Source: Parasporobacterium sp. (GTDB taxonomy: Bacteria > Bacillota > Clostridia > Lachnospirales > Lachnospiraceae). Taken from it: a stretch of 45,003 nucleotides of DNA. Both the position numbers and the translations under genes were made by a program. The notes beneath the pieces are model-generated. The model was given only the letters and a program-made list of their open reading frames with translations, was not told the DNA's origin and did not search any database. Positions 9,217 through 41,473 of the stretch are shown here, one piece after another. Within the stretch, counting starts at the first letter, position 1. Each line of letters begins with the position of its first letter. The stretch lies in NCBI GenBank assembly GCA_021443845.1, contig JABUTA010000003.1, positions 23,887-68,889 on the forward strand, given 5' to 3'.

Positions 9217-9234
9217 ATGTAGTTTATGCTACAT
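9217..9234. promoter_or_regulatory. Putative Crp/Fnr-family operator ATGTAG-tttatg-CTACAT upstream of the ferredoxin/flavoprotein operon
   Basis: Perfect 6-bp arms with N6; contains GTA-N8-TAC; centre 9225.5 is about 42 bp upstream of the TSS predicted from TACAAT at 9256-9261; near-identical to the site at 41350-41367. Confidence 0.65.
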
Positions 9235-9290
9235 GCATTTATTATTTACCAGGTTTACAATATCCCTATAAATATAAGGAGGATCCGACA

Positions 9291-9518
9291 ATGCCACCCG
9301 TAATCGACGAAAAGAAATGCAAAAAATGCGGATACTGTGCAGCTATATGCCCACTGGATGTTCTGTACCTTGACAAAGCTGCCCAAAAGCTTCTGGTGCG
9401 TTATCCCGATGAGTGCTGGCACTGCAAAGCCTGCATGAGAGACTGCCCGGTTAAAGCCATCACTATCAGATATCCTTTATCTCATATGATGCTTCACTAT
9501 CCGAAGGAGGTAGAATAA
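9291..9518 (+). CDS. 4Fe-4S ferredoxin (short AprB-like subunit), two clusters
   Basis: CKKCGYCAAICPLDVLYL and CWHCKACMRDCPVKAI motifs; SD aaggagg; coupled to the next gene by TAATG overlap. Confidence 0.9.
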   Translation: MPPVIDEKKCKKCGYCAAICPLDVLYLDKAAQKLLVRYPDECWHCKACMRDCPVKAITIRYPLSHMMLHYPKEVE

Positions 9519-11182
9519 TGCATAAATATAAATGTGAATTTCTCTGCGTAGGCGGCGGCATCGGAGGACTTATGGCAGCAATAGCCGCCGGCAAAAAAGG
9601 CATTGATGTCATTGTTGCGGAAAAGGCTGACACCCGCAGATCCGGTTCAGGCTCCAACGGCAACGACCATTTCCACTGCTATATACCCGAGTGTCACGGA
9701 ACGGACATGAGCCGTGTGTACAGGGAGATCGGAGCTTCATTTGATGCGGGTCCCTGGGTAGATTCCAATCTCACAGCTGTATGGATAAACAGAAGCTTTG
9801 AGATCATAAAGATGTGGGAAGAAATGGGCATCACAATGCGTCCTACCGGTGAATGGAGATTTGAAGGTCACGGCATGCCGGGGCAGCAGCTGTACAATCT
9901 CAAATTTGACGGTGCCCTCCAGAAAAAATGCCTTACTGCAGAAGCAAAGAAACAGGGAGCCCGTATCCTCAACCGTGTAGTAATCCATGACATCCTTACC
10001 GGCGAAGACGGCCGTGTAACGGGTGCCTTAGGTATAGATATCAATAATGAAGAACCTGAAATGGTAGTTATCGAATGCAAGGCTGCTCTTCTGGCTACAG
10101 GAATGGTATCCAGAATGTATCCCAGCATTACTCCTGCATATATGTTTAATACCCCCTGCTGTCCTGCCACAACAGGCGACGCCCAGGCGATGGCATACAG
10201 AGCCGGTGCCAAGCTGGTTAACATGGACATGCTTAACGGACATGCAGGCCCCAAATACCTGGCGCGTGGCGGCAAGGGAACCTGGATCGGTGTATCAACA
10301 GATATCCGTGGCAGGTCCATAACCTCCTATAATTCCAAGCCGTCCCGTGCAACAGGTGACATAACCGCTGATGTATGGCCTACCTGCTACAGAGACCGTC
10401 TGAAACAGGGCAAGGGACCCACATTCATGAACTGTACGGAGACCCCTGTGGAAGACCTTGATTACATGCTCCATACTGCAATGGTAAGTGAAGGGATCGA
10501 TTCCATCACAGACTACTGTGAACACTACGGTATAGACCTTACAAAGGATATGGTAGAATTCGGAACCTATCCAATAATGATGGGCCAGAGAGGCATCGAG
10601 ATAGATGACCATGCCCGTTCAAGCATTCCCGGGCTCTATGCTGCCGGGAACTGTACCGGAAACGTCAACGGAAGCCTGGCAGGTGCCGCTGCCTTCGGTA
10701 TGGTGGCAGGAGAGGATGCTGCTGAATATGTGAAGACCGTTGATGAAGCCCCTGTGGGGAACGAAGATCTCATAAATGAGCGTCAGCAGCTCTATGATGC
10801 CTTTATGTCACGCCGGGACGGAGCCCACTGGAAGGAAGCCGCTTCCACACTGCAGAATCTTATGAATGAATATGCAAGTGCGGACCAGCAGAACGAAGAC
10901 ATGCTCAGGGCAGGTATGGTATATATGGGTCAGCTCAGGGAAAACTGCCTCAATGAACTGGCATGTGCCAACTCCCATGAGCTTCTGAGAAGCATCGAGG
11001 TCCTCAATATGATCGACCTGGCAGAGCCTATATTCCTCTGCAGTGAGAACCGTAAGGAAACCAGGGGTCCTCACGTACGTGCTGACTATTCATACATGGA
11101 TATTACCCTGAACGGAAAGTTTCAGACCATATACAAGGATAAAGACGGCACCGTACATCTTGAGTACAGATTCAAAAAATAG
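9518..11182 (+). CDS. FAD-binding protein, fumarate reductase/adenylylsulfate reductase alpha-like flavoprotein
   Basis: Rossmann motif CVGGGIGGLMAAIAAGKKGIDVIVAEKA; GLYAAGNCTGNVNGSLAGAAAFGMVAGEDAAEYV near the C-terminal part. Confidence 0.88.
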   Translation: MHKYKCEFLCVGGGIGGLMAAIAAGKKGIDVIVAEKADTRRSGSGSNGNDHFHCYIPECHGTDMSRVYREIGASFDAGPWVDSNLTAVWINRSFEIIKMWEEMGITMRPTGEWRFEGHGMPGQQLYNLKFDGALQKKCLTAEAKKQGARILNRVVIHDILTGEDGRVTGALGIDINNEEPEMVVIECKAALLATGMVSRMYPSITPAYMFNTPCCPATTGDAQAMAYRAGAKLVNMDMLNGHAGPKYLARGGKGTWIGVSTDIRGRSITSYNSKPSRATGDITADVWPTCYRDRLKQGKGPTFMNCTETPVEDLDYMLHTAMVSEGIDSITDYCEHYGIDLTKDMVEFGTYPIMMGQRGIEIDDHARSSIPGLYAAGNCTGNVNGSLAGAAAFGMVAGEDAAEYVKTVDEAPVGNEDLINERQQLYDAFMSRRDGAHWKEAASTLQNLMNEYASADQQNEDMLRAGMVYMGQLRENCLNELACANSHELLRSIEVLNMIDLAEPIFLCSENRKETRGPHVRADYSYMDITLNGKFQTIYKDKDGTVHLEYRFKK

Positions 11183-11202
11183 TATTGGTTATTGCTGTAT
11201 AC

Positions 11203-11243
11203 AATCCGGGAACTTATAATGGATATAAGTTTCCGGATTTTTT
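11203..11243 (+). terminator. Strong intrinsic terminator/attenuator between the flavoprotein and the Crp/Fnr gene
   Basis: aatccgggaacttata-atgga-tataagtttccggatt: 16 bp stem with one G-U pair, followed by tttt. Ends 14 nt before the crp-like start codon. Confidence 0.85.
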
Positions 11244-11256
11244 GAAAGGAAATAAC

Positions 11257-11934
11257 ATGACAGAAACATTTCCACCCTTTGATGAAAAATTCATATCAAA
11301 ATATCCTGTCGTGCGGTTCCGCAAGGGTGACATAATCCTTAAATACGGTCAGCTGAACACTCATCTGTACTGTATCAAAGAAGGCATATGTGCCTGCACC
11401 ATCATCAATACAGACGGCAATACACTTATCCCTCTCTTTCTCAGAAAGCATGAAGTTATCGGCGTCAGACTGGAGCTTCTGGGGGTTATGGAAAACCGCT
11501 CCATACATGAGGTTTCTGCCCATACGGATGTGGCAGCATATAAAATTCCCATTAATGACATCCGTACATTGCTGAAAACTGATTTTGAAGCCTATAAAAG
11601 AGCCACAAGATCTGTAATATCTTCTCTGGACAGAGTAATTGAAACCTCCAATCTCAGGGGCAAAGGCAATTCTGTCATGATGGTATGCAATACCATTTAT
11701 CACGAGATGGAGCCGGTTCCGGGGAAAAAAGACCTGTTCATTCTGCCTTCATATTTCAGTGTAACAGACCTGGCCAACAGTATGCTGATACACAGGGTAA
11801 CCGTATCCCGTATCATGCACACCCTGTGTATGGAAAATGTCATGAAAAAGGAAGACCGGTGCTGGTACATAACAGATGCATCTCTGCTCAATAAATACCG
11901 TCAGGGAATGCTGACTCTGAAGATTAAAAAATAA
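11257..11934 (+). CDS. Crp/Fnr family transcriptional regulator
   Basis: cNMP-binding fold (VVRFRKGDIILKYGQLNTHLYCIKEGICACTI) and HTH_Crp (VTDLANSMLIHRVTVSRIMHTLCMENVM). Start MTETFPPFDEKF with SD gaaagga. Confidence 0.88.
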   Translation: MTETFPPFDEKFISKYPVVRFRKGDIILKYGQLNTHLYCIKEGICACTIINTDGNTLIPLFLRKHEVIGVRLELLGVMENRSIHEVSAHTDVAAYKIPINDIRTLLKTDFEAYKRATRSVISSLDRVIETSNLRGKGNSVMMVCNTIYHEMEPVPGKKDLFILPSYFSVTDLANSMLIHRVTVSRIMHTLCMENVMKKEDRCWYITDASLLNKYRQGMLTLKIKK

Positions 11935-11970: not shown

Positions 11971-13311
11971 ATGGATAAATATGCCGTGATCGGTATCGGC
12001 TGTGCCGGATATAATGCAGTAAAATCTATGAGAGAAAACGGATTCATCGGAGAGATCCATATTTATTCCGATGTATCCCATCCTTCGGCCAATCCCATGC
12101 TGACCACATACTATGTTTCCGGCAGACTTCCCCGGGAGGGAATGTTCCCCTTCGGAAGCCTGGAGAAACTGGTAAAGGATTATAATGTCATTCTTCATAC
12201 GGACACCCGGGTACGTCATGTGAATGCATCTGAAAAGCAGCTGGTTCTGGAAGACGGCTCATCAGAAGTCTTTGATAAGATCCTTATAGCTGCGGGGGCC
12301 AGAGCCGTATCCCCTCCTCTCGGGCAGAAGCCGAAAGGACGATGCTTTCTCATGCGCTCTGTGGAGGATGCAGACCGGCTGAAGCAGGTACTGGAGCAGG
12401 AAAACATTTCATCAGCTGCTGTAGTAGGTGCATCTATGACCGGGATAAAGGTAACGGAACTCCTGGCAGAAAAGAATATCTCTGTCACCATGATAGACAT
12501 GGCAGACAGACTCTTTCCGCTGGCATGTATGAAGGAAACCGCCGATATTCTGGAAAAGGATCTGACCGGCAGGGGCATCCGTCTACTGCTCAGGACCGGA
12601 GTTGACCATGTGGAGGAAAATGGAAACGACATCAGTACATTCCTCACTGACGGCAGCTGTGTCAGTACAGATATTCTGGTACTTTGCATAGGTACCAGGG
12701 CCAACACCGAGCTGGCTGCCAATACGGAAGTGTTGGAAAAAGAGCCTGTTCTGATAAACAGGGGCATAGTGGTGGATGAACATATGCAGACCAGCGTCCC
12801 GGGAATATTTGCAGCCGGTGACTGCTGTGAAGCTCTCAATATCCAGACCGGCAGTACCATGATCATTGGCCTCTGGGCAAACGCAGCTGAGCAGGGACGG
12901 ATTGCAGGCTGCTGCATGGCTGCAGACTGCAATGAAAACAGCCTGCCAGACACTCCTCCGGCAGATGGCAGTCCTTCTTCAGCTTTGTGCAGTGCTCTTC
13001 CTGCTTACAAAGGTTCTATCCCCAACAATATCACCCACTATTTTGATCAGACATTTGTGGGTATAGGCGATCCGAACCTTACCGGAGAGCGGTTTACCGC
13101 ATTTAATAAATCCGGCATGGTCAGTGCCATCCACGATGGCAGAAATATAAAATGCATAAATATTCTGGGAAACTACCGCATCAGCGGCATGGTTAAGGAC
13201 TATCTCATAAAACGGATCACCGGGCAGGGTGCATTTATGGCCGTTGCTGATATGGGCCTTTTAAGAAACAGCGGTGTTCCGGAAGAATTTATACAATTGC
13301 TGAAAAACTGA
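11971..13311 (+). CDS. FAD/NAD(P)-dependent pyridine nucleotide-disulfide-type oxidoreductase (NADH:rubredoxin/nitrite reductase flavoprotein-like)
   Basis: VIGIGCAGYNAVKSM, second Rossmann AAVVGASMTGIKVTELLAEKNISVTMIDMADR, VPGIFAAGDCCEA. Confidence 0.85.
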   Translation: MDKYAVIGIGCAGYNAVKSMRENGFIGEIHIYSDVSHPSANPMLTTYYVSGRLPREGMFPFGSLEKLVKDYNVILHTDTRVRHVNASEKQLVLEDGSSEVFDKILIAAGARAVSPPLGQKPKGRCFLMRSVEDADRLKQVLEQENISSAAVVGASMTGIKVTELLAEKNISVTMIDMADRLFPLACMKETADILEKDLTGRGIRLLLRTGVDHVEENGNDISTFLTDGSCVSTDILVLCIGTRANTELAANTEVLEKEPVLINRGIVVDEHMQTSVPGIFAAGDCCEALNIQTGSTMIIGLWANAAEQGRIAGCCMAADCNENSLPDTPPADGSPSSALCSALPAYKGSIPNNITHYFDQTFVGIGDPNLTGERFTAFNKSGMVSAIHDGRNIKCINILGNYRISGMVKDYLIKRITGQGAFMAVADMGLLRNSGVPEEFIQLLKN

Positions 13312-13409
13312 AGCTGAACAACCTGCACCTGTCCGACAGCTGAATTAACAGCTTCAGACGGCTGCAAAAACATCCGCTGCACATCCTGCGGTAAAAATGG
13401 AGAAACAAC

Positions 13410-15659
13410 ATGACTGAACAGGAATTATTATTAAGAGCCAAGCTGCCCGGTGCCGATACCGGCATTGAAATAAAGCATTCCGTATGCGATATCTGCACTC
13501 CGGGACCCCAGTGCGGGATCAATGCATATATTAAGGATGGCGAGATCGTCAAGATAGAGGGAATGCCGGGCTTCCCGGGAAGCGGAGGCGTGCTGTGCAC
13601 AAAGGGTGCCGCCAACCGTCAGTACGTATACCGGAAAGAGCGCATAAAGACTCCTCTGAAGCGTGTGGGTGAAAGAGGCAGCAGGGATTTCGTACCCATA
13701 AGCTGGGATGAAGCCTATGACATTATTGAAGAAAACCTCAGCAATATCAGAAAGCAATACGGTCCTGAAAGTGTGGTGTGGTTTACCGGATATACCAAAT
13801 GGATCCGCCCCTGGCTCAGACGTCTGTGCCACAGCTTCGGCGGTCACAACTACATGACCGAGTCCAGCACCTGCTTCCGTGCCGGCAGAATGGCTAACGA
13901 GACCATTTTCGGCCGGGATGCCAGAGGTGATGTGATGGGTGCTCCTCACCTTATGGTGGGCTGGGGCAGCAATCCCTTCATCAATGCCTATCCTATGGGA
14001 AGAGGATTCGTAAAAAGCAAGGAAGCCGGTACAAAGATCATTATCGTTGATGTCCGCCATACCCAGGCCGCAGAAAAGCTGGCGGATCTGTTCCTTCAGC
14101 CCAATATCGGAACAGATGCGGTACTGGCCCATGCCATTGCCAATATCATCATACAGAACGGCTGGCAGGATCAGGAATTTATTGATTCCTATGTCCACGG
14201 CTTTGATGACTACAGAAAAATGGTATCTCAGTATGACCTGGAGACCGCCGAAAAGATCACCGGGGTTCCTGCCCGGGATATCTTCACCGCAGCGGACTGG
14301 ATTGCCCACATAAAGCCGACCCAGATCGGTACAAATAACGGCATCGCCCATCATACCAACGGTTTCAATACCCACCGGGCAATTATGTGCCTTAACCTTA
14401 TTACCGGCAACTATGACAAACCCGGCACTACTCTTCCTGTTTACGATACCTTCTGCGACATGGGTTCCGGTTTCGATACCCACGAAGAAGAATTCATGGA
14501 AGAAACCCGGACTCCCAAGACTCTTCCCCAGATCGGAGAAGAGCGATTTCCTCTGTGGAACCTTATGACCGGGGATGCCCAGGCCATGGACCTTACCAGA
14601 CAGCTTCTTGAAGGTACCCCGTATAAACTGCATGCTCTGTGTGCCTTCGGTATGAACACTATGATGTTCCCTGAAACTCCTCTTTTCAGGAAGGCTCTTA
14701 AGACCCTGGATTTCATGATGGCCACAGACCTTGTATGGACCGATGCCTGCTCCTACGCAGACATAGTACTTCCTGTGTGCAGCTCTCTGGAAAGAAGCGA
14801 AGTGAAATGCTACCCGGGAGGATTTTTCTACTATACAAACCCAGCTATCGAACCTTTATATGAAAGCAGGAATGATGTGGAGATAATGACCGAGCTGGCC
14901 AGAAGACTGTGCCCTGAGGATAAGGTTCTCTGTTCCGGATATCATGAGTGCATTAAATACATGTTCAGGGAAATGACTGACGAGATCGAGAAAGGTCATG
15001 AAACAGGCCTTCCCGTAAGGAGTTCTCATTTCAGACCGTATATTCCGGGAACATATCTGAAGAACGGCCCTTCTACCCCGTCAGGGAAGCTGGAGCTTTA
15101 CAGTGAGCTGATAGCAGGCATTGACCCCTCTTACGGTCTGGATCCTCTGCCCTCCTTCTATAATGCAGACCGGAAATCATGTAAAAACCCGGTATCCGCA
15201 GACTCTGGGGCGGATAACACCTGCATTGATTATAATGACATCTCCAGCCCCGGCTGCGGTACTAACAGCTCCGGCTGCGGCATTAACAGCAATTTATATA
15301 ATGACTGTGGCAGCTTCACTCTCATGACAGGTGCAAGACTGCCCCACACTATCCACTCCCGCGGTCACAAGGTTCCCTGGCTCAGAAGCCTGCGTCCTGA
15401 CCCTATGGTGGACATCAATCCTTCCGATGCGACAAGACTTGGTATAGCCCAGGAGGACAGAGTAAGGTTATTTAATGATACCGGTGAGATATCTGTGCTG
15501 GCCAATGTAACGGAAGTTGCCAACAAGGGAGACCTTCACCTGATACACGGCTATGAAGAAGCCAATGCCACGGACCTGATTCCATGGGATCATACGGATC
15601 CCTACAGCGGCTTCCCGGGATACAAGCAGGTCAGAGTTTTCATAGAGAAAGCTGACTGA
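13410..15659 (+). CDS. Molybdopterin-dependent oxidoreductase, DMSO reductase superfamily catalytic subunit, apparently cytoplasmic
   Basis: N-terminal Fe-S motif VCDICTPGPQCG...GVLCTKG; SWDEAYDIIEENL; ESSTCFRAGRMANETIFGRDARGDVMGAPHLMVGWGSNP; C-terminal VDINPSDATRLGIAQEDRVRLFNDTGEI. No twin-arginine signal. Confidence 0.9.
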   Translation: MTEQELLLRAKLPGADTGIEIKHSVCDICTPGPQCGINAYIKDGEIVKIEGMPGFPGSGGVLCTKGAANRQYVYRKERIKTPLKRVGERGSRDFVPISWDEAYDIIEENLSNIRKQYGPESVVWFTGYTKWIRPWLRRLCHSFGGHNYMTESSTCFRAGRMANETIFGRDARGDVMGAPHLMVGWGSNPFINAYPMGRGFVKSKEAGTKIIIVDVRHTQAAEKLADLFLQPNIGTDAVLAHAIANIIIQNGWQDQEFIDSYVHGFDDYRKMVSQYDLETAEKITGVPARDIFTAADWIAHIKPTQIGTNNGIAHHTNGFNTHRAIMCLNLITGNYDKPGTTLPVYDTFCDMGSGFDTHEEEFMEETRTPKTLPQIGEERFPLWNLMTGDAQAMDLTRQLLEGTPYKLHALCAFGMNTMMFPETPLFRKALKTLDFMMATDLVWTDACSYADIVLPVCSSLERSEVKCYPGGFFYYTNPAIEPLYESRNDVEIMTELARRLCPEDKVLCSGYHECIKYMFREMTDEIEKGHETGLPVRSSHFRPYIPGTYLKNGPSTPSGKLELYSELIAGIDPSYGLDPLPSFYNADRKSCKNPVSADSGADNTCIDYNDISSPGCGTNSSGCGINSNLYNDCGSFTLMTGARLPHTIHSRGHKVPWLRSLRPDPMVDINPSDATRLGIAQEDRVRLFNDTGEISVLANVTEVANKGDLHLIHGYEEANATDLIPWDHTDPYSGFPGYKQVRVFIEKAD

Positions 15660-15803
15660 CATCGAATACGGAACAATAAAGCTGTTCAAAGCTCTTTGTT
15701 ATGAATCGAAAATATTACTTTCAGGGAGATTTCTTTCTGCCGGTTCTGATACAGTTCTGAACAGTAAATTGCAGAATGTGCAGTTATCTACAGGAGTAAA
15801 AAC

Positions 15804-16250
15804 ATGAGTTATAAGATCAATTTCTATGCTGACCTCTGCGTGGCCTGCGGAGCCTGCTCAGTAGCATGCATGGATCAGAATGACATAGACACAGAAAAAG
15901 GTGACCAGCCCTATCGCCGGGCATACCAGACAGATTACACTGACAGCGGTGAGAAGCATATCGGTTATTTTTCAGCTTCCTGCCGGCATTGCGACGATGC
16001 CCCCTGCATTGCCGCATGCCCTTCAGGCTGCCTGTTCAAGGATCCGGAAACCGGATTTACCGTATACGACACCACTAACTGCATAGGCTGCCGGAGCTGT
16101 TCCATGGCCTGTCCTCATGGTGCTCCCGCCGTAGCTTCAACCGGCAAAATGGCCAAATGCTACGGCTGCAACGAGCGGGTTAAGGCAGGACTGAAACCCG
16201 CCTGCGTGGCTGTGTGCCCCTTCGGAGCTTTGAAGCTGGAGGAAGCATGA
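15804..16250 (+). CDS. 4Fe-4S dicluster electron-transfer subunit (DmsB/NrfC-like)
   Basis: CVACGACSVACMDQND, CRHCDDAPCIAACPSGC, CIGCRSCSMACPHGAP, CYGCNERVKAGLKPACVAVCPFGAL. Confidence 0.9.
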   Translation: MSYKINFYADLCVACGACSVACMDQNDIDTEKGDQPYRRAYQTDYTDSGEKHIGYFSASCRHCDDAPCIAACPSGCLFKDPETGFTVYDTTNCIGCRSCSMACPHGAPAVASTGKMAKCYGCNERVKAGLKPACVAVCPFGALKLEEA

Positions 16251-16323: not shown

Positions 16324-17286
16324 ATGAGTGAGAACAGGATAATAGATGTCCATACACATATAACCACCCCCAGATTTATGAAAATGCTGGAGGATAATAA
16401 TGCATTATGGGAGGATGGCTTTCCCATTCCGAAATGGAACCTGAAGGACTGTCTGGATACCATGGATGAGCTGGAAATATGCCATGCAGTACTGTCAGAG
16501 TCATCCCCTCATCCATTCTATGGAAATCTTCAGGAAAGCATTGATGTGTGCAGAGACCTTAACGATACAGCTGCAGACGCGAAATCAAAACATCCCGACA
16601 GGTTTTCGTTTACTGCCACCCTGCCTCTGCCTGATATTAATGCAGCATGTCATGAGGCAGTAAGATGCATGGACGAGTTGGGAGCATCAGGAATCAAATT
16701 CGCCAGCAACAGCCGGGGATTATACATCGGAGACCCTTCCCTGGAACCATTAATGCAGGAGCTCGATAAAAGAGGTGCGGTCTGCACTATACACCCTACC
16801 ATTCCTGACAGGCTTAACCAGGATGTATTCTCCGCAGGTCCTGTTCCCATGTTCGAATTCATAGCTGACACAACCCGTGCAGTCATTAATATGATTGCCT
16901 CCGGAGTTATCCGCAGATACCCGAACATCAAATGGATAGTACCCCACAGCGGATCTTTCCTGCCGAATATATATCCCCGTTTTATTTCTATTTTCGATAT
17001 CCTTGACCCGACTCATGAAAAATACGGTGATATAAATGTCGAAGCTGATATTAAGAAGCTCTACTTCGATCTGGCGGGACATCCTGTACCCCACCTGCTG
17101 GATTTCCTGATGACCATCGCAGATTCCTCACACATACTCTATGGTACGGATTCACCATTTCCTCCGAAAGGATTCGTTGTTAAAGGGCTTCAGGATTTCA
17201 TCAATATGATGGATACAAGAGAGGATCTAAAGTCATATAAGACCATGATACTCCATGACAATGCAGCTGCTCTTATACTGCACTGA
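16324..17286 (+). CDS. Amidohydrolase family protein (ACMSD / gamma-resorcylate decarboxylase-like TIM barrel)
   Basis: IIDVHTHITTPRF (HxH), GIKFASN, CTIHPTIPDR, WIVPHSGSFLPNIYPRF, ILYGTDSPFPP. Confidence 0.8.
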   Translation: MSENRIIDVHTHITTPRFMKMLEDNNALWEDGFPIPKWNLKDCLDTMDELEICHAVLSESSPHPFYGNLQESIDVCRDLNDTAADAKSKHPDRFSFTATLPLPDINAACHEAVRCMDELGASGIKFASNSRGLYIGDPSLEPLMQELDKRGAVCTIHPTIPDRLNQDVFSAGPVPMFEFIADTTRAVINMIASGVIRRYPNIKWIVPHSGSFLPNIYPRFISIFDILDPTHEKYGDINVEADIKKLYFDLAGHPVPHLLDFLMTIADSSHILYGTDSPFPPKGFVVKGLQDFINMMDTREDLKSYKTMILHDNAAALILH

Positions 17287-35953: not shown

Positions 35954-37651
35954 TCACATATTGAAATTATCCGAATAGTACCTTTCCACAGAATGTTTAT
36001 ACATTTCGATGGGCACAGTTCTTTTCTCAGGTACAGGCTTTCCCGCCACATTCTTAAGGACTACCCAGCACAGCCAGTCATCATAATGCTCAGGATAGTC
36101 TGCACGGTAGTGCCCCGCCCGGCTGTCCGTCCTGAATAATGCAGATGTCAGATAGTATTCCGTAACATCGGCAATGGACTTTACCTCCTCTGCTTTCAGA
36201 AGATAATGGGGGTCCGGTGCTGTCATCCGGCTGAGCTTTTCCGACCTCAGTTCTTCTAACTGCAGCCTGGCCCGGGTCAGCCCCTCCCCGGTCTTTAATA
36301 TGGATACGTCATAAGGAGCAATAATTTTCTGAAGGTCTTCGAGTATTTCCGAAGGAGATATGCCTTCCTTTCCTACTATTTCGAAGGTCCCGGCAAGACT
36401 TTTTTCAGCATATGCCGTATCTGCTGTTACTCTGTCATGGCCGGAAATAAAATCCGCCGCTGCCCTTCCTGCCTGCCTTCCGGTAACCGCAGTGGTCATA
36501 AGGGCAAATCCTCCCATATAAACTCCGGGATCCAGACTCCTTAAACGCCCTGCTATATACAGACCGTCAACTCCGCTCTCACCGTTCCTGCCGGTCTTCA
36601 CTGCCCCGTTGGACAGTTGCACTACAGGTATCCATTCAAATTCATCCCTAAAGAAATCTATGCCTTCCTCCACCAGCTTTTCATAATGGATCAGCTGCCT
36701 GCCTGCCTTCGGTTTTATTATGGGATAATCTTTTTCCGGAATTGCGGAAAGATCCAGATGTATGGGGGCATTGCCCGCCAGGGTTTCCAGTGCCATACCC
36801 CTGGTCAGATAATGGGGATCCGTATTGGCACCGAACTTCGGAGAATACCTATCCATAAAGGTCTCGCCGTTTTTATTTACGAATTTCGCCCCCAGAGGCA
36901 TCAGGACAGTCTGCCCTTCCCATTCAAAATACTTCGGCACATTCCAAATATGGAGGAACTCAAAGTTCTGCAGCTGTGCTCCCGCCCGGAATGCCAGCAC
37001 CGGTCCTTCCCCTGAGGCAGTATTCTGATTATAGGATGGCTTCCAGCTGGCTATGCCTGCTGCCAGAATGACGCACTGAGCCTCAAATAATATTCTCTGT
37101 CCTGTTACATAATTGAAACCCACGGCACCTGCTGTCCGATTCTCCCCCGAATGGACATCTTTGAGGATTTCCGTGATTTCTACCCTTCCCATACGTTTTA
37201 CACCCAGGCGGTCCATTTCGGATATCATGGCTTTTCGCATATTTTTTCCTCCGGTACCCTTGGTCTGCACCGGAAACAGCTTTACTGTATCCAGAGAACG
37301 CTGATGTACATAGCGGTAATTTCCCTCATTATCTTTCAGATATGTACATCCCAGCCTCTGATATTCTTCGAATATCCCGTGAGACTGCTGCCACAGCTCT
37401 TCCATTACATCCTGCTCGCAGAGACCGTCCCAGTAATACACAAAATCCTTTACCCACTTTTCAGGTGAATCCCCCTGAAGGCACACCTCCAGATCCCCGC
37501 CGGACAGGGACATAAGCCCACCCCAGTCGGGATAGGATTTGTCAACTATCAGCACCTCCAGGGAAGGATCCTGCTCCTTTGCACCCTTGGCAGCCCACAA
37601 TCCCGAAGATCCGCCGCCGATTATCAGAATATCTGTTTTTATTATTTCCAT
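35954..37651 (-). CDS. FAD-binding protein, fumarate reductase/AprA-like flavoprotein (second in window)
   Basis: MEIIKTDILIIGGGSSGLWAAKGAKEQDPSLEVLIVDKS; GLYIAGRLRSLDPGVYMGGFALMTTAVTGRQAGRAAA; C-terminal helical region. Confidence 0.88.
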   Translation of the reverse strand: MEIIKTDILIIGGGSSGLWAAKGAKEQDPSLEVLIVDKSYPDWGGLMSLSGGDLEVCLQGDSPEKWVKDFVYYWDGLCEQDVMEELWQQSHGIFEEYQRLGCTYLKDNEGNYRYVHQRSLDTVKLFPVQTKGTGGKNMRKAMISEMDRLGVKRMGRVEITEILKDVHSGENRTAGAVGFNYVTGQRILFEAQCVILAAGIASWKPSYNQNTASGEGPVLAFRAGAQLQNFEFLHIWNVPKYFEWEGQTVLMPLGAKFVNKNGETFMDRYSPKFGANTDPHYLTRGMALETLAGNAPIHLDLSAIPEKDYPIIKPKAGRQLIHYEKLVEEGIDFFRDEFEWIPVVQLSNGAVKTGRNGESGVDGLYIAGRLRSLDPGVYMGGFALMTTAVTGRQAGRAAADFISGHDRVTADTAYAEKSLAGTFEIVGKEGISPSEILEDLQKIIAPYDVSILKTGEGLTRARLQLEELRSEKLSRMTAPDPHYLLKAEEVKSIADVTEYYLTSALFRTDSRAGHYRADYPEHYDDWLCWVVLKNVAGKPVPEKRTVPIEMYKHSVERYYSDNFNM

Positions 37652-37746: not shown

Positions 37747-37959
37747 TCATCCGAAGGCAGACGGAAACTGTTTCTTAAAGGGATGTACATATACAGCTCC
37801 CACAGGGCATGCCTGCTCACACAGATAACAGGTGTGGCAGTCTTCTGGATAGGCAATGTATGCCTTTCCCTTCTCATCCATCCTCAGAGTATCCAGAGGG
37901 CAGTTATCCACACAGCTGCCGCAGCCGATACACAGTTCTTTATCAATGCTTCTTATCAT
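37747..37959 (-). CDS. 4Fe-4S ferredoxin (short AprB-like subunit), two clusters
   Basis: CIGCGSCVDNCPLDTLRM and CHTCYLCEQACPVGAVYV. Start MIRSIDKELC at 37959 with SD gaggaaaa; ORF max start 38019. Confidence 0.9.
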   Translation of the reverse strand: MIRSIDKELCIGCGSCVDNCPLDTLRMDEKGKAYIAYPEDCHTCYLCEQACPVGAVYVHPFKKQFPSAFG

Positions 37960-38062
37960 CAGATTTTCCTCACTGTCAAACAATTTATAACTGTTCCGAG
38001 GCCGGTTCTGAACAGTCACAACAATACCGTCATTTTAACGAAATCGGAACGGAATATATTAC

Positions 38063-38093
38063 AACGGGAGAAAGGACCATCCTCTCTCCCGTT
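38063..38093. repeat. Intergenic hairpin upstream of the second ferredoxin gene
   Basis: aacgggaga (38063-38071) pairs with tctcccgtt (38085-38093). Confidence 0.45.
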
Positions 38094-38163
38094 ATTTTCA
38101 AAATTGCATTATTTACTTATCATGTATGTTCCCGTGTATTGTCAGTATGCATCACCGTACATT

Positions 38164-38227: not shown

Positions 38228-39301
38228 TTATTTCATGATAGAAAGTGCATATTCGTATGCATCCTTGAATTCTTCGCAGTTTGGCATTGCTGCGATCTCT
38301 TCGATCTTGGCATCGATAACAGGCTGAGCTGCTTCTTTCCATACTGCCACTTCTTCCGGAGTTAATGTAACGATAGTGTTGTCAGGTGATTCACCAACTA
38401 CCTTGTCAAATAAATCCATATCGCCGAATCTTACTTCCTGTTCTTCCTTGTGAAGAGTCATTCCTTCTTCTGTGAGTATCAGCTGGGCTGCAGGAGATAA
38501 TGAATTCCAGAAATCTTCACTTACACAGTGAATGGAAACATCAAAGTAGATACCGCCGTTTTCCTGGAAGATAACGCTCTGCTTTGCTACCTCATAAAGA
38601 CCCATTGTTGCAACAGGACCACCGTTCTGGAAGATACCATCAGCTACGCCGCCCTGAAGTGACTGATAGCAGTCCGGAAATGCTACCTGAAGAGGAGCTG
38701 CACCGTAAGCTTCAATAATCTTAAGCATCATAGCAGACATACCGATAATCTTCTTGCCTGCAATATCAGCAGGAGTTCTAACTTCGCCTGATGCATTGAT
38801 GTGAAGGTTAACTGCAGGAGTCATGTTGTAGCTTAAAAGGTGAAGACCGTTTCCAGTGATTTCCTTTTCAAGAAGTGAAGGGAATTTATCGCATACTTCG
38901 CCGAATACTTCAGCTCCGGCTCTTGTCATTCCCATGAAAGGAATAGATACAACATTGGCTGTCATAGGGAATAAATTTTCAAAGTTGGCTATATTGATGT
39001 TGGCTATATCGCATCTTCCGTCCAGAAGGGCATCAACTGTTTCCTGTGCTGATACCAGCGAGCCTGATCCGTAAAATTCATAGTCGATCTTGCCCCCTGA
39101 TCTTTCCTTTACTCTCTCGAGGAATGCAATATATGCTGTCTCGATCTGCTCACCACGGGTTGATGTGGCAATGATTGTGATAGGTTCAATACTGTCGATA
39201 TCGACTTCACCTGCTGCAGCAACGCCTTCTTCTGCAAAAGCTGTAAATGCCATGCCAAGAACCATGACTGCTGCTAATAATAATGTAACAACTTTCTTCA
39301 T
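38228..39301 (-). CDS. dctP: TRAP transporter substrate-binding protein (DctP family)
   Basis: Signal peptide MKKVVTLLLAAVMVLGMAFTAFAEEG; ...EVRTPADIAGKKIIGMSAMMLKIIEAYGAAPLQVAFPDCYQSLQGGVADGIFQNGGPVATMGLYEVAK. Start 39301 has SD ggaggaaag. Confidence 0.88.
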   Translation of the reverse strand: MKKVVTLLLAAVMVLGMAFTAFAEEGVAAAGEVDIDSIEPITIIATSTRGEQIETAYIAFLERVKERSGGKIDYEFYGSGSLVSAQETVDALLDGRCDIANINIANFENLFPMTANVVSIPFMGMTRAGAEVFGEVCDKFPSLLEKEITGNGLHLLSYNMTPAVNLHINASGEVRTPADIAGKKIIGMSAMMLKIIEAYGAAPLQVAFPDCYQSLQGGVADGIFQNGGPVATMGLYEVAKQSVIFQENGGIYFDVSIHCVSEDFWNSLSPAAQLILTEEGMTLHKEEQEVRFGDMDLFDKVVGESPDNTIVTLTPEEVAVWKEAAQPVIDAKIEEIAAMPNCEEFKDAYEYALSIMK

Positions 39302-39408
39302 TTTTCTTTCCTCCATAAAATATGTTGGTAAACAACCTTAACCTTTATTTCAACCTTCGGATCCGGAGATCAGAAAGCCGTAAGCATATGTATTATATCA
39401 ATATCTTT

Positions 39409-39458: not shown

Positions 39459-40757
39459 CTACATCAGATTCGGCAGCCACAGAACTATCTGCGGGAATAT
39501 GCTGATAAGTATTATTACCAGAATAAGTCCTATTATGAACGGTGCAACTCCCTTGAATATCTTTCTGACGTCCACCTTGGACAGACCTGCCAGCAGGAAT
39601 ACAACCATTCCCACAGGAGGTGTGATGGAACCAAGGGCTGTCATAAGTACTACGAAAAGTCCGAACCAGGTTCCGTTAAGTCCTAATGTGGTAACCATGA
39701 TAGGATACAGGATAGGTACTGTCAGCATGATCATCGGATTGTCCGGCATGAACATACCGAGAATGATATACATCAGAGCCACTAAAACGATGACTATGCC
39801 AACAGGAAGTCCTGCGCTTGTAATAGCATTGGCCAGGAATGCGGGCACCTTGCTGTAGGTGATAAATGTTGTGAAAATATTGGTACCGATCATAAGAAGC
39901 AGGATAGTACCTGTAAGAAGAGAGGTGTGGATAAGACATCCCATAATCTTCTTAAAATTAAGTCTTTTTGTGACTATACCTATGATTACCGCCGCAAATG
40001 CTCCGATGGCACCGGATTCCGTTACTGTGAACCATCCTCCGTAAATACCGCCCAGAACCAGGACAAACAGTAAGATGATCGGCCATACTGTCTTTAATGT
40101 CCTGAATCTGTCTTTCCAGCCTGTACGCTGTCCTGCAGGGCCGTATGACGGATTGATCTTTGTTACCACGCTGATCAGTATGATATCCAGTACGATAAGT
40201 ATAACACCCGGAACAATACCTGATATGAACAGCTTTCCTATGTTTTCATTGGCGATGATACCGTACATGATCATGGGTACTGACGGAGGTATGATGATAG
40301 CCAGTGGAGCTGCACCTGCAACTGCGCCGGTTGCCAGTTCATCCGAATAATTGTATCTCTTCATTTCCGGAAGAGCTATCTTGCTCATGATGATAGTGCC
40401 GGCCATATGAGATCCTGTGATAGCGCCCAGCACACCGGAAGCTACCGTAGTAGCTGAAGCGAGACCGCCCCTTCGATGTCCCATAAAGGCGTTGGCCGCT
40501 CCGAACAGATCCTTGCCCATACTGGACTCCGATATGACCAGACCCATCATGATGAACATGGGTATTACCGTAAGAGAATAATTATTGCTGGTTATAAAGG
40601 GCTGGGTACCGATTACATTAAGAGCCTGGGTATCACCCCGCACGATCATGATACCGATCATACCGATAAGTGTCATGGCTACACCGATCCACATACGGCA
40701 TGCCAGGAAGAGGAATAAAATAATAATGGCGAATAAACCGATCAGTTCTTTGCTCAT
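39459..40757 (-). CDS. dctM: TRAP transporter large permease (DctM family)
   Basis: Multi-TM protein; ASATTVASGVLGAITGSHMAGTIIMSKIALPEMKRYNYSDELATGAVAGAAPLAIIIPPSVPMIMYG signature. Confidence 0.93.
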   Translation of the reverse strand: MSKELIGLFAIIILFLFLACRMWIGVAMTLIGMIGIMIVRGDTQALNVIGTQPFITSNNYSLTVIPMFIMMGLVISESSMGKDLFGAANAFMGHRRGGLASATTVASGVLGAITGSHMAGTIIMSKIALPEMKRYNYSDELATGAVAGAAPLAIIIPPSVPMIMYGIIANENIGKLFISGIVPGVILIVLDIILISVVTKINPSYGPAGQRTGWKDRFRTLKTVWPIILLFVLVLGGIYGGWFTVTESGAIGAFAAVIIGIVTKRLNFKKIMGCLIHTSLLTGTILLLMIGTNIFTTFITYSKVPAFLANAITSAGLPVGIVIVLVALMYIILGMFMPDNPMIMLTVPILYPIMVTTLGLNGTWFGLFVVLMTALGSITPPVGMVVFLLAGLSKVDVRKIFKGVAPFIIGLILVIILISIFPQIVLWLPNLM

Positions 40758-41300
40758 TTAGTTTACCTCCTTCTTAGCTATCTTGTCCCCGAGAAGACCC
40801 GGTATCTTATAGGGTTCCTTGCCTGCCAGTTCTCTGGCTTCATTAATGGTAAGGAATATTGTTGCGCACGCTCCCCCGAAGAAGCCTACGGCAACCACCA
40901 CTACGAATGGCCAGTGGGGAACATTAAGAAGTGTATATCCGTACCCTTTATTTGAATAATCAATAGCTGTAACGATAGAACGCCATACCACAATTCCCAG
41001 TACCGCAGTTGTGATAAGGTTCATGATGATGGTTATAATGTGACGGGGTGCATTGGGAAGTGCATCCATTACAAAGTCTACAGAAACATTCTGCCCCGTA
41101 AGGCATCCCATGCCCATTGCCAGAATAGTTCCTACATTAAAAATCTGAACCATTTCCGTTGCACCTGTGATCGGGTGTCCGAAGATATTTCGTGCAATAA
41201 CATCCGCTACCGAAAGCAGAATCATGATCGCTGTCGAAATAATAGAAAAGTAAGATAAAAATCTTGCTATCCCCTGAAGAATCCTTGATACAATCTTCAT
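40758..41300 (-). CDS. dctQ: TRAP transporter small permease (DctQ family)
   Basis: Four TM segments; VADVIARNIFGHPITGATEMVQIFNVGTILAMG; directly upstream of dctM. Confidence 0.9.
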   Translation of the reverse strand: MKIVSRILQGIARFLSYFSIISTAIMILLSVADVIARNIFGHPITGATEMVQIFNVGTILAMGMGCLTGQNVSVDFVMDALPNAPRHIITIIMNLITTAVLGIVVWRSIVTAIDYSNKGYGYTLLNVPHWPFVVVVAVGFFGGACATIFLTINEARELAGKEPYKIPGLLGDKIAKKEVN

Positions 41301-41323
41301 ACTTTTATACCTCCCTCGCTTGT

Positions 41324-41367
41324 ATTATACACACCTTATATTCGGTTTTCTGTAGTTTAAACTACAG
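41324..41367 (-). promoter_or_regulatory. TRAP operon promoter with Crp/Fnr-like operator CTGTAGTTTAAACTACAG
   Basis: Perfect 18-bp palindrome at 41350-41367; minus-strand -10 TATAAT (41329-41324); operator centre 41358.5 is about 41.5 bp upstream of predicted TSS (about 41317). Confidence 0.72.
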
Positions 41368-41448: not shown

Positions 41449-41473
41449 AAGAGCCGGCAAAATGCCGGCTCTT
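41449..41473 (-). terminator. Rho-independent terminator of the 2-oxoacid:ferredoxin oxidoreductase operon
   Basis: aagagccggca-aaa-tgccggctctt, 11-bp stem; minus strand continues TTCCG after CTCTT. Confidence 0.82.

Follow-up and report, generated by a model that had tools for sequence, protein, structure and literature searches.

A predicted Crp/Fnr-type operator common to a TRAP transporter promoter and a ferredoxin/flavoprotein promoter 32 kb away

The window, that is, the whole stretch of 45,003 nucleotides that was analyzed, carries a TRAP transporter locus on its minus strand in the order dctQ-dctM-dctP, followed co-directionally by the genes of a ferredoxin (Fd2) and a flavoprotein (Flavo2) (Table 1). 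All three components, DctP, DctQ and DctM, were identified, with PF03480, PF04290 and PF06808 scoring above their cutoffs. The operon upstream, encoding a 2-oxoacid:ferredoxin oxidoreductase, ends in a terminator-like hairpin, so dctQ needs a promoter of its own.

The Fd2-Flavo2 pair is preceded by a gap of 268 bp holding a strong hairpin, and no promoter was listed when the minus strand of this dctP-Fd2 gap of the window was scanned. The simplest reading is that the pair would be transcribed by reduced read-through from the dctQ promoter, and it likely belongs to the same regulon. In G706, a second genome of the genus, the corresponding hairpin (L093 10023-10061) has an energy of -29.2 kcal/mol, with a weak U tract as in the window. 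The position of the hairpin is common to both species and its sequence differs; it may be a partial terminator or an RNA-stabilising element after the binding-protein gene.

In the DctP proteins (that of the window, L093 8938-9999 and L087 11649-12803), KIIGMS/KITGSS takes the place of an arginine present in the best solved DctP homologs. The substrate, judged from these proteins, may be other than an ordinary carboxylate.

The second locus lies on the plus strand, where Fd1 and Flavo1 are followed by a gene for a Crp/Fnr regulator and by reductase and molybdopterin enzyme genes; the run continues past the Fe-S subunit with an amidohydrolase. Flavo1 and Flavo2 are distant paralogs (24%); among solved structures, the alpha subunit of a PAPS reductase is nearest to Flavo1. 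The regulator probably starts at ATG 11257, in agreement with its ortholog in G706, within a frame open from TTG 11185. A TTGCTG-17-TATAAT element just upstream of it (window 11185-11257) could be a separate basal promoter of the regulator.

Table 1. Features of the two loci in the window.
Feature	Position	Strand	Remarks
Sister operator, Fd1 promoter	9218..9233	+	TGTAGTTTATGCTACA; counterpart TGTAGCTTATGCTACA at the G706 Fd1 promoter
-10 box TACAAT, Fd1 promoter	9256..9261	+	22 bp past the operator core
Fd1, two-[4Fe-4S] ferredoxin	9291..9518	+	79% identical in G706
Flavo1, AprA/fumarate-reductase-superfamily flavoprotein	9518..11182	+	80% identical in G706
Crp/Fnr regulator	11257..11934	+	recognition helix HRVTVSRIM; PF00027 above cutoff; ortholog and NtcA/CRP alignments
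NADH:ferredoxin-reductase-like, molybdopterin oxidoreductase and Fe-S subunit genes	11971..16250	+	after the regulator; its neighbours in G706 too
Flavo2, FAD_binding_2/fumarate-reductase-like flavoprotein	35954..37651	-	74% identical in G706
Fd2, two-[4Fe-4S] ferredoxin	37747..37959	-	80% identical in G706
Hairpin between dctP and Fd2	38061..38096	-	dG -25.7 kcal/mol; hairpin at matching place in G706; probable partial terminator
dctP, TRAP solute-binding protein	38228..39316	-	PF03480; 75% identical in G706
dctM, TRAP large membrane subunit	39459..40757	-	PF06808; 84% identical in G706
dctQ, TRAP small membrane subunit	40758..41300	-	PF04290; 72% identical in G706
Predicted transcription start, dctQ	41317..41317	-	41.5 bp from operator centre; geometry only
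-10 box TATAAT, dctQ promoter	41324..41329	-	21 bp past the 16-bp operator core; -35 match at most 3/6
Predicted operator, dctQ promoter	41350..41367	-	CTGTAGTTTAAACTACAG; core TGTAG-N6-CTACA = TGTA-N8-TACA, NtcA-type; position-conserved in G706
Terminator of upstream 2-oxoacid:ferredoxin oxidoreductase operon	41449..41473	-	strong terminator-like hairpin; separates the operon from the TRAP promoter

The PF00027 sensor domain, a cNMP-binding fold, was recognized in the regulator with 38.8 bits (cutoff 27.5) and in its G706 ortholog, which is about 60% identical, with 42.7 bits. The Crp-type C-terminal helix-turn-helix domain (PF13545) scored 37.0 in the ortholog against a cutoff of 27, and 21.9, below that cutoff, in the window protein; the two orthologs have identical recognition helices. 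In the alignment, the Arg-Ser of the cAMP pocket (82-83) is kept and Glu-72 is not aligned. With the NtcA equivalog model TIGR03697 the score was 24 bits, below the cutoff of 244.95.

The palindrome CTGTAGTTTAAACTACAG in the dctQ promoter is the sole perfect 18-bp palindrome of the window, and its 16-bp core is TGTAGTTTAAACTACA. It is followed on the minus strand, after 21 bp, by TATAAT and then by dctQ; this -10 box was not called as a promoter in the sigma-70 promoter scan. The palindrome centre lies 29.5 bp from the edge of the -10 box and 41.5 bp from the predicted start. At the sister site, 32.1 kb away, TGTAGTTTATGCTACA is followed on the plus strand, after 22 bp, by TACAAT and then by Fd1, and the corresponding distances are 30.5 and 42.5 bp. 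The initial annotation had described the gene order of the TRAP locus, the palindrome with its -10 box and start, the two operator-to-minus-10 distances, and a common operator at the locus 32 kb away; the gene order was confirmed, recomputation returned the same values, and both sites carry TGTAG-N6-CTACA.

Among 14 genomes of the genus, regulator homologs were found only in G000, the genome of the window itself, and in G706. The footprint comparison is thus based on two species, G706 being the only other genome with the regulator. On contig C167 of G706, the genes Fd1-Flavo1-YeiH-like (PF03601)-DctQ-DctM-DctP-Fd2-Flavo2 are adjacent and co-directional, and the regulator, Fe-S subunit, molybdopterin enzyme and reductase genes adjoin this run on the opposite strand. 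Since the operons are adjacent in G706, the two-locus layout of the window differs from it, as judged from gene order, by rearrangement of one cluster. Unlike the Fd1 run of the window, the regulator in G706 has no operator ahead of it.

The G706 Fd1 promoter carries TGTAGCTTATGCTACA, with perfect half-sites, 22 bp from TATAAT, and the G706 dctQ promoter carries a degenerate site, TATAGTTTAAGCTGCA, likewise 22 bp from TATAAT. The latter agrees with the window dctQ operator in 13 of 16 positions, each half-site having one mismatch, and keeps its position and 6 of 9 palindromic pairs; a match of 13/16 or better at one fixed place has a chance probability of about 4e-6. Across the four promoters of the two species, the gaps between operator and -10 box were 21, 22, 22 and 22 bp. 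A possible third site, close to the G706 PyrRedox gene (16486-16528), was rejected as background, lying inside coding sequence with 2 mismatches.

Footprinting of orthologous dctQ promoters, which had been proposed beforehand, was thus run once, with G706, and yielded a position-conserved operator. The earlier suggestion that both reductase-like pairs may belong to one regulon was supported: G706 joins both pairs and the TRAP genes in one co-directional run, while in the window read-through into Fd2-Flavo2 from the dctQ promoter is still a presumption.

It is highly likely that the palindrome of the dctQ promoter is the operator of a local Crp/Fnr class II activator governing a regulon for TRAP uptake and reduction. 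We infer that the Crp/Fnr protein of the window would bind TGTAG-N6-CTACA as a dimer at about -41.5/-42.5, replacing the -35 box, and that the bound dimer would recruit RNA polymerase. The site centres, 41.5 and 42.5 bp from the predicted starts and accompanied by a -10 box, correspond to class II geometry. The same site would drive the Fd1-Flavo1(-regulator) operon, and the TRAP genes and both ferredoxin/flavoprotein pairs would make up a single small local regulon. In the window the regulator is itself part of the Fd1 gene run, so positive feedback is possible. The inducer would be a small molecule, in the simplest case the substrate of the TRAP system or a compound made from that substrate.

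As far as sequence goes, the sites, their spacings, their conservation and their co-occurrence with the regulator can be read directly, and the two operons very probably constitute one small co-regulated pathway. Two operons of unassigned role, 32 kb apart, would in this way be tied by sequence alone to a single regulator and a single uptake system, and the two promoters with their one regulator would offer an experimental handle for finding which substrate a TRAP/flavoprotein system serves in an anaerobic, probably clostridial genome.

Of the known systems, NtcA is comparable in site, centre and -10 layout, its sites being GTA-N8-TAC, with the centre near -41.5 and a -10 box of the form TAN3T (PMC3898017). 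The recognition helix is also similar, RVTVTR in NtcA and RVTVSR here, with Ser for the second Thr, and NtcA chains were the best PDB matches of the G706 ortholog (5e-8). In contrast to NtcA, the predicted regulon is local, has two promoters and does not concern nitrogen control, and the half-sites are extended to TGTAG...CTACA. By this comparison, a Crp/Fnr protein other than NtcA may have DNA specificity of the NtcA type. The exact motif TGTAG-N6-CTACA had no match in the open-access literature searched.

CprK, the halorespiration activator of Desulfitobacterium, is likewise a Crp/Fnr activator of an anaerobic Firmicute that adjoins its reductase operon, and its helix, HVTVSR, shares the Val that occupies the base-selecting position (PMC2610375). 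This residue, Val-192, corresponds to FNR Glu-209 and has been linked with a pyrimidine at the matching base, in practice T where FNR has C (PMC2610375), which fits the A:T pair at position four of TGTAG. The CprK dehalobox, however, is TTAAT-N4-ATTAA with a 4-bp spacer, where the sites here are TGTAG-N6-CTACA, and His-191 is replaced by Arg.

E. coli CRP at class II promoters shares the fold, the two-fold site in a 16-bp frame and the -41.5 geometry. Its helix is RETVGR, in which Arg-180 reads the G of TGT and substitutions of Glu-181 shift specificity; in the window protein Glu-181 is Val, and the site has A:T where that of CRP has G:C. PrfA of Listeria showed weak full-length similarity (4e-4), but its recognition helix is SSAVSR and its regulon is unrelated.

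Among the alternatives, the one that survives best, though improbable, is that the operator is genuine and bound by another Crp/Fnr protein of NtcA-like specificity encoded elsewhere, in which case the regulator of the window would be merely adjacent and act on other targets. In its favour, genome completeness is 82%, and other genomes of the family do have Crp/Fnr homologs, although a family-wide search of 299 genomes for the regulator returned only weak ones of 20-35% identity. The window gene was, however, the sole regulator-like gene detected in G000, and its recognition helix fits the site. Moreover, G706 has both the operator and the ortholog, whereas the strict operator-promoter arrangement was absent from the four tested genomes of the genus lacking the ortholog.

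No TGTA-N8-TACA was present in the flanks examined (1.5 kb on each side in G670) of eleven Flavo1 homologs of about 40-60% identity from G067, G046, G217, G107, G063, G670 and G702, and at the Flavo1 loci of these seven genomes no close regulator ortholog stands alongside. A search of genome contigs with the regulator gave only distant matches in Flavobacteria (27-38%), from which no footprint could be drawn. In G670, which belongs to another family, dctM-dctP directly precede Fd1-Flavo1 (L087 9593-13565), the regulator of the window is not nearby, and the contig ends before dctQ. This adjacency provides independent evidence that the transporter and the reductase pair work together.

Less probable again is repression, in which the bound dimer would overlap the -35 region and block the polymerase until a ligand frees the site. 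The operator does overlap the -35 position, and NtcA acts as a repressor at some promoters, those with its box downstream of the -35 box (PMC3898017). In all four promoters, however, no -35 hexamer better than 3/6 was found at spacers of 16-18, an absence that speaks for class II activation rather than repression, and the layout matches canonical promoters under class II activation.

It is very doubtful that the palindrome acts as an RNA hairpin, i.e. a terminator or attenuator, although the terminator scan lists it, on the plus strand, as terminator-like. It lies upstream of the -10 box and thus outside the predicted dctQ transcript, the preceding operon has its own terminator, and the degenerate G706 dctQ copy keeps the position but just 6 of 9 palindromic pairs.

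Chance expectation was evaluated by simulation and by pattern searches. A perfect 18-bp palindrome was present in 39 of 200 first-order Markov windows, about one-fifth, so palindromicity by itself is weak evidence. Only 3 of 3000 simulated windows contained two exact TGTAG-N6-CTACA sites, a figure that leaves aside the added constraint that both sites stand 21 or 22 bp ahead of a -10 box and a short way before a gene. Genome-wide, 7 exact sites were found against 4 for the reversed control; the other five fall inside stop-free frames of 292-701 codons, and only two therefore look like promoter sites.

In six genomes of the genus, the operator followed by 22 bp and TATAAT gave only three matches with at most 2 mismatches, all in this cluster, compared with 19 places for the reversed control, so the evidence lies in location and not in count. 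With a 21-bp gap, the sole match free of mismatches was the dctQ site itself; the other 15 had two mismatches each, and control numbers were similar. Operator matches were thus not over-represented in number relative to reversed-pattern controls, and what is special is their placement. The loose NtcA-like promoter TGTA-N8-TACA-N20-23-TANNNT gave 24 hits in the own genome against 13 for the control, and further regulon members from this pattern were dropped as too noisy.

A chance palindrome with chance likeness of two AT-rich intergenic stretches, as remote a prospect as the RNA hairpin despite the frequency of such palindromes and the unexceptional site counts, is already contradicted by recurrence at both orthologous G706 promoters; the rarity of two exact copies and their common -10 spacing also speak against it.

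Beyond the class II activator and its regulon, a wider proposal is possible but rather doubtful: a Crp/Fnr sensor of its own subgroup might detect a substrate imported by the TRAP system, in whose binding protein the usual arginine is missing, and induce two AprA-like ferredoxin/flavoprotein reductases of an undescribed anaerobic pathway, maybe in sulfur chemistry. The possible link to sulfur comes from the structure nearest to Flavo1 and from the YeiH-type gene in the G706 run, a family (PF03601) linked to sulfite resistance (PMC12880088).

This G706 gene (L093 5729-6829) encodes a membrane protein between Flavo1 and dctQ, is absent at the matching place in the window, and ends in TAG with an open tail after it. 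In G219 (L088 4227-13523), a member of the genus without the regulator, a TRAP system of about 30-42% identity stands beside the same kind of 2-oxoacid:ferredoxin oxidoreductase operon as the one ahead of the TRAP genes in the window.
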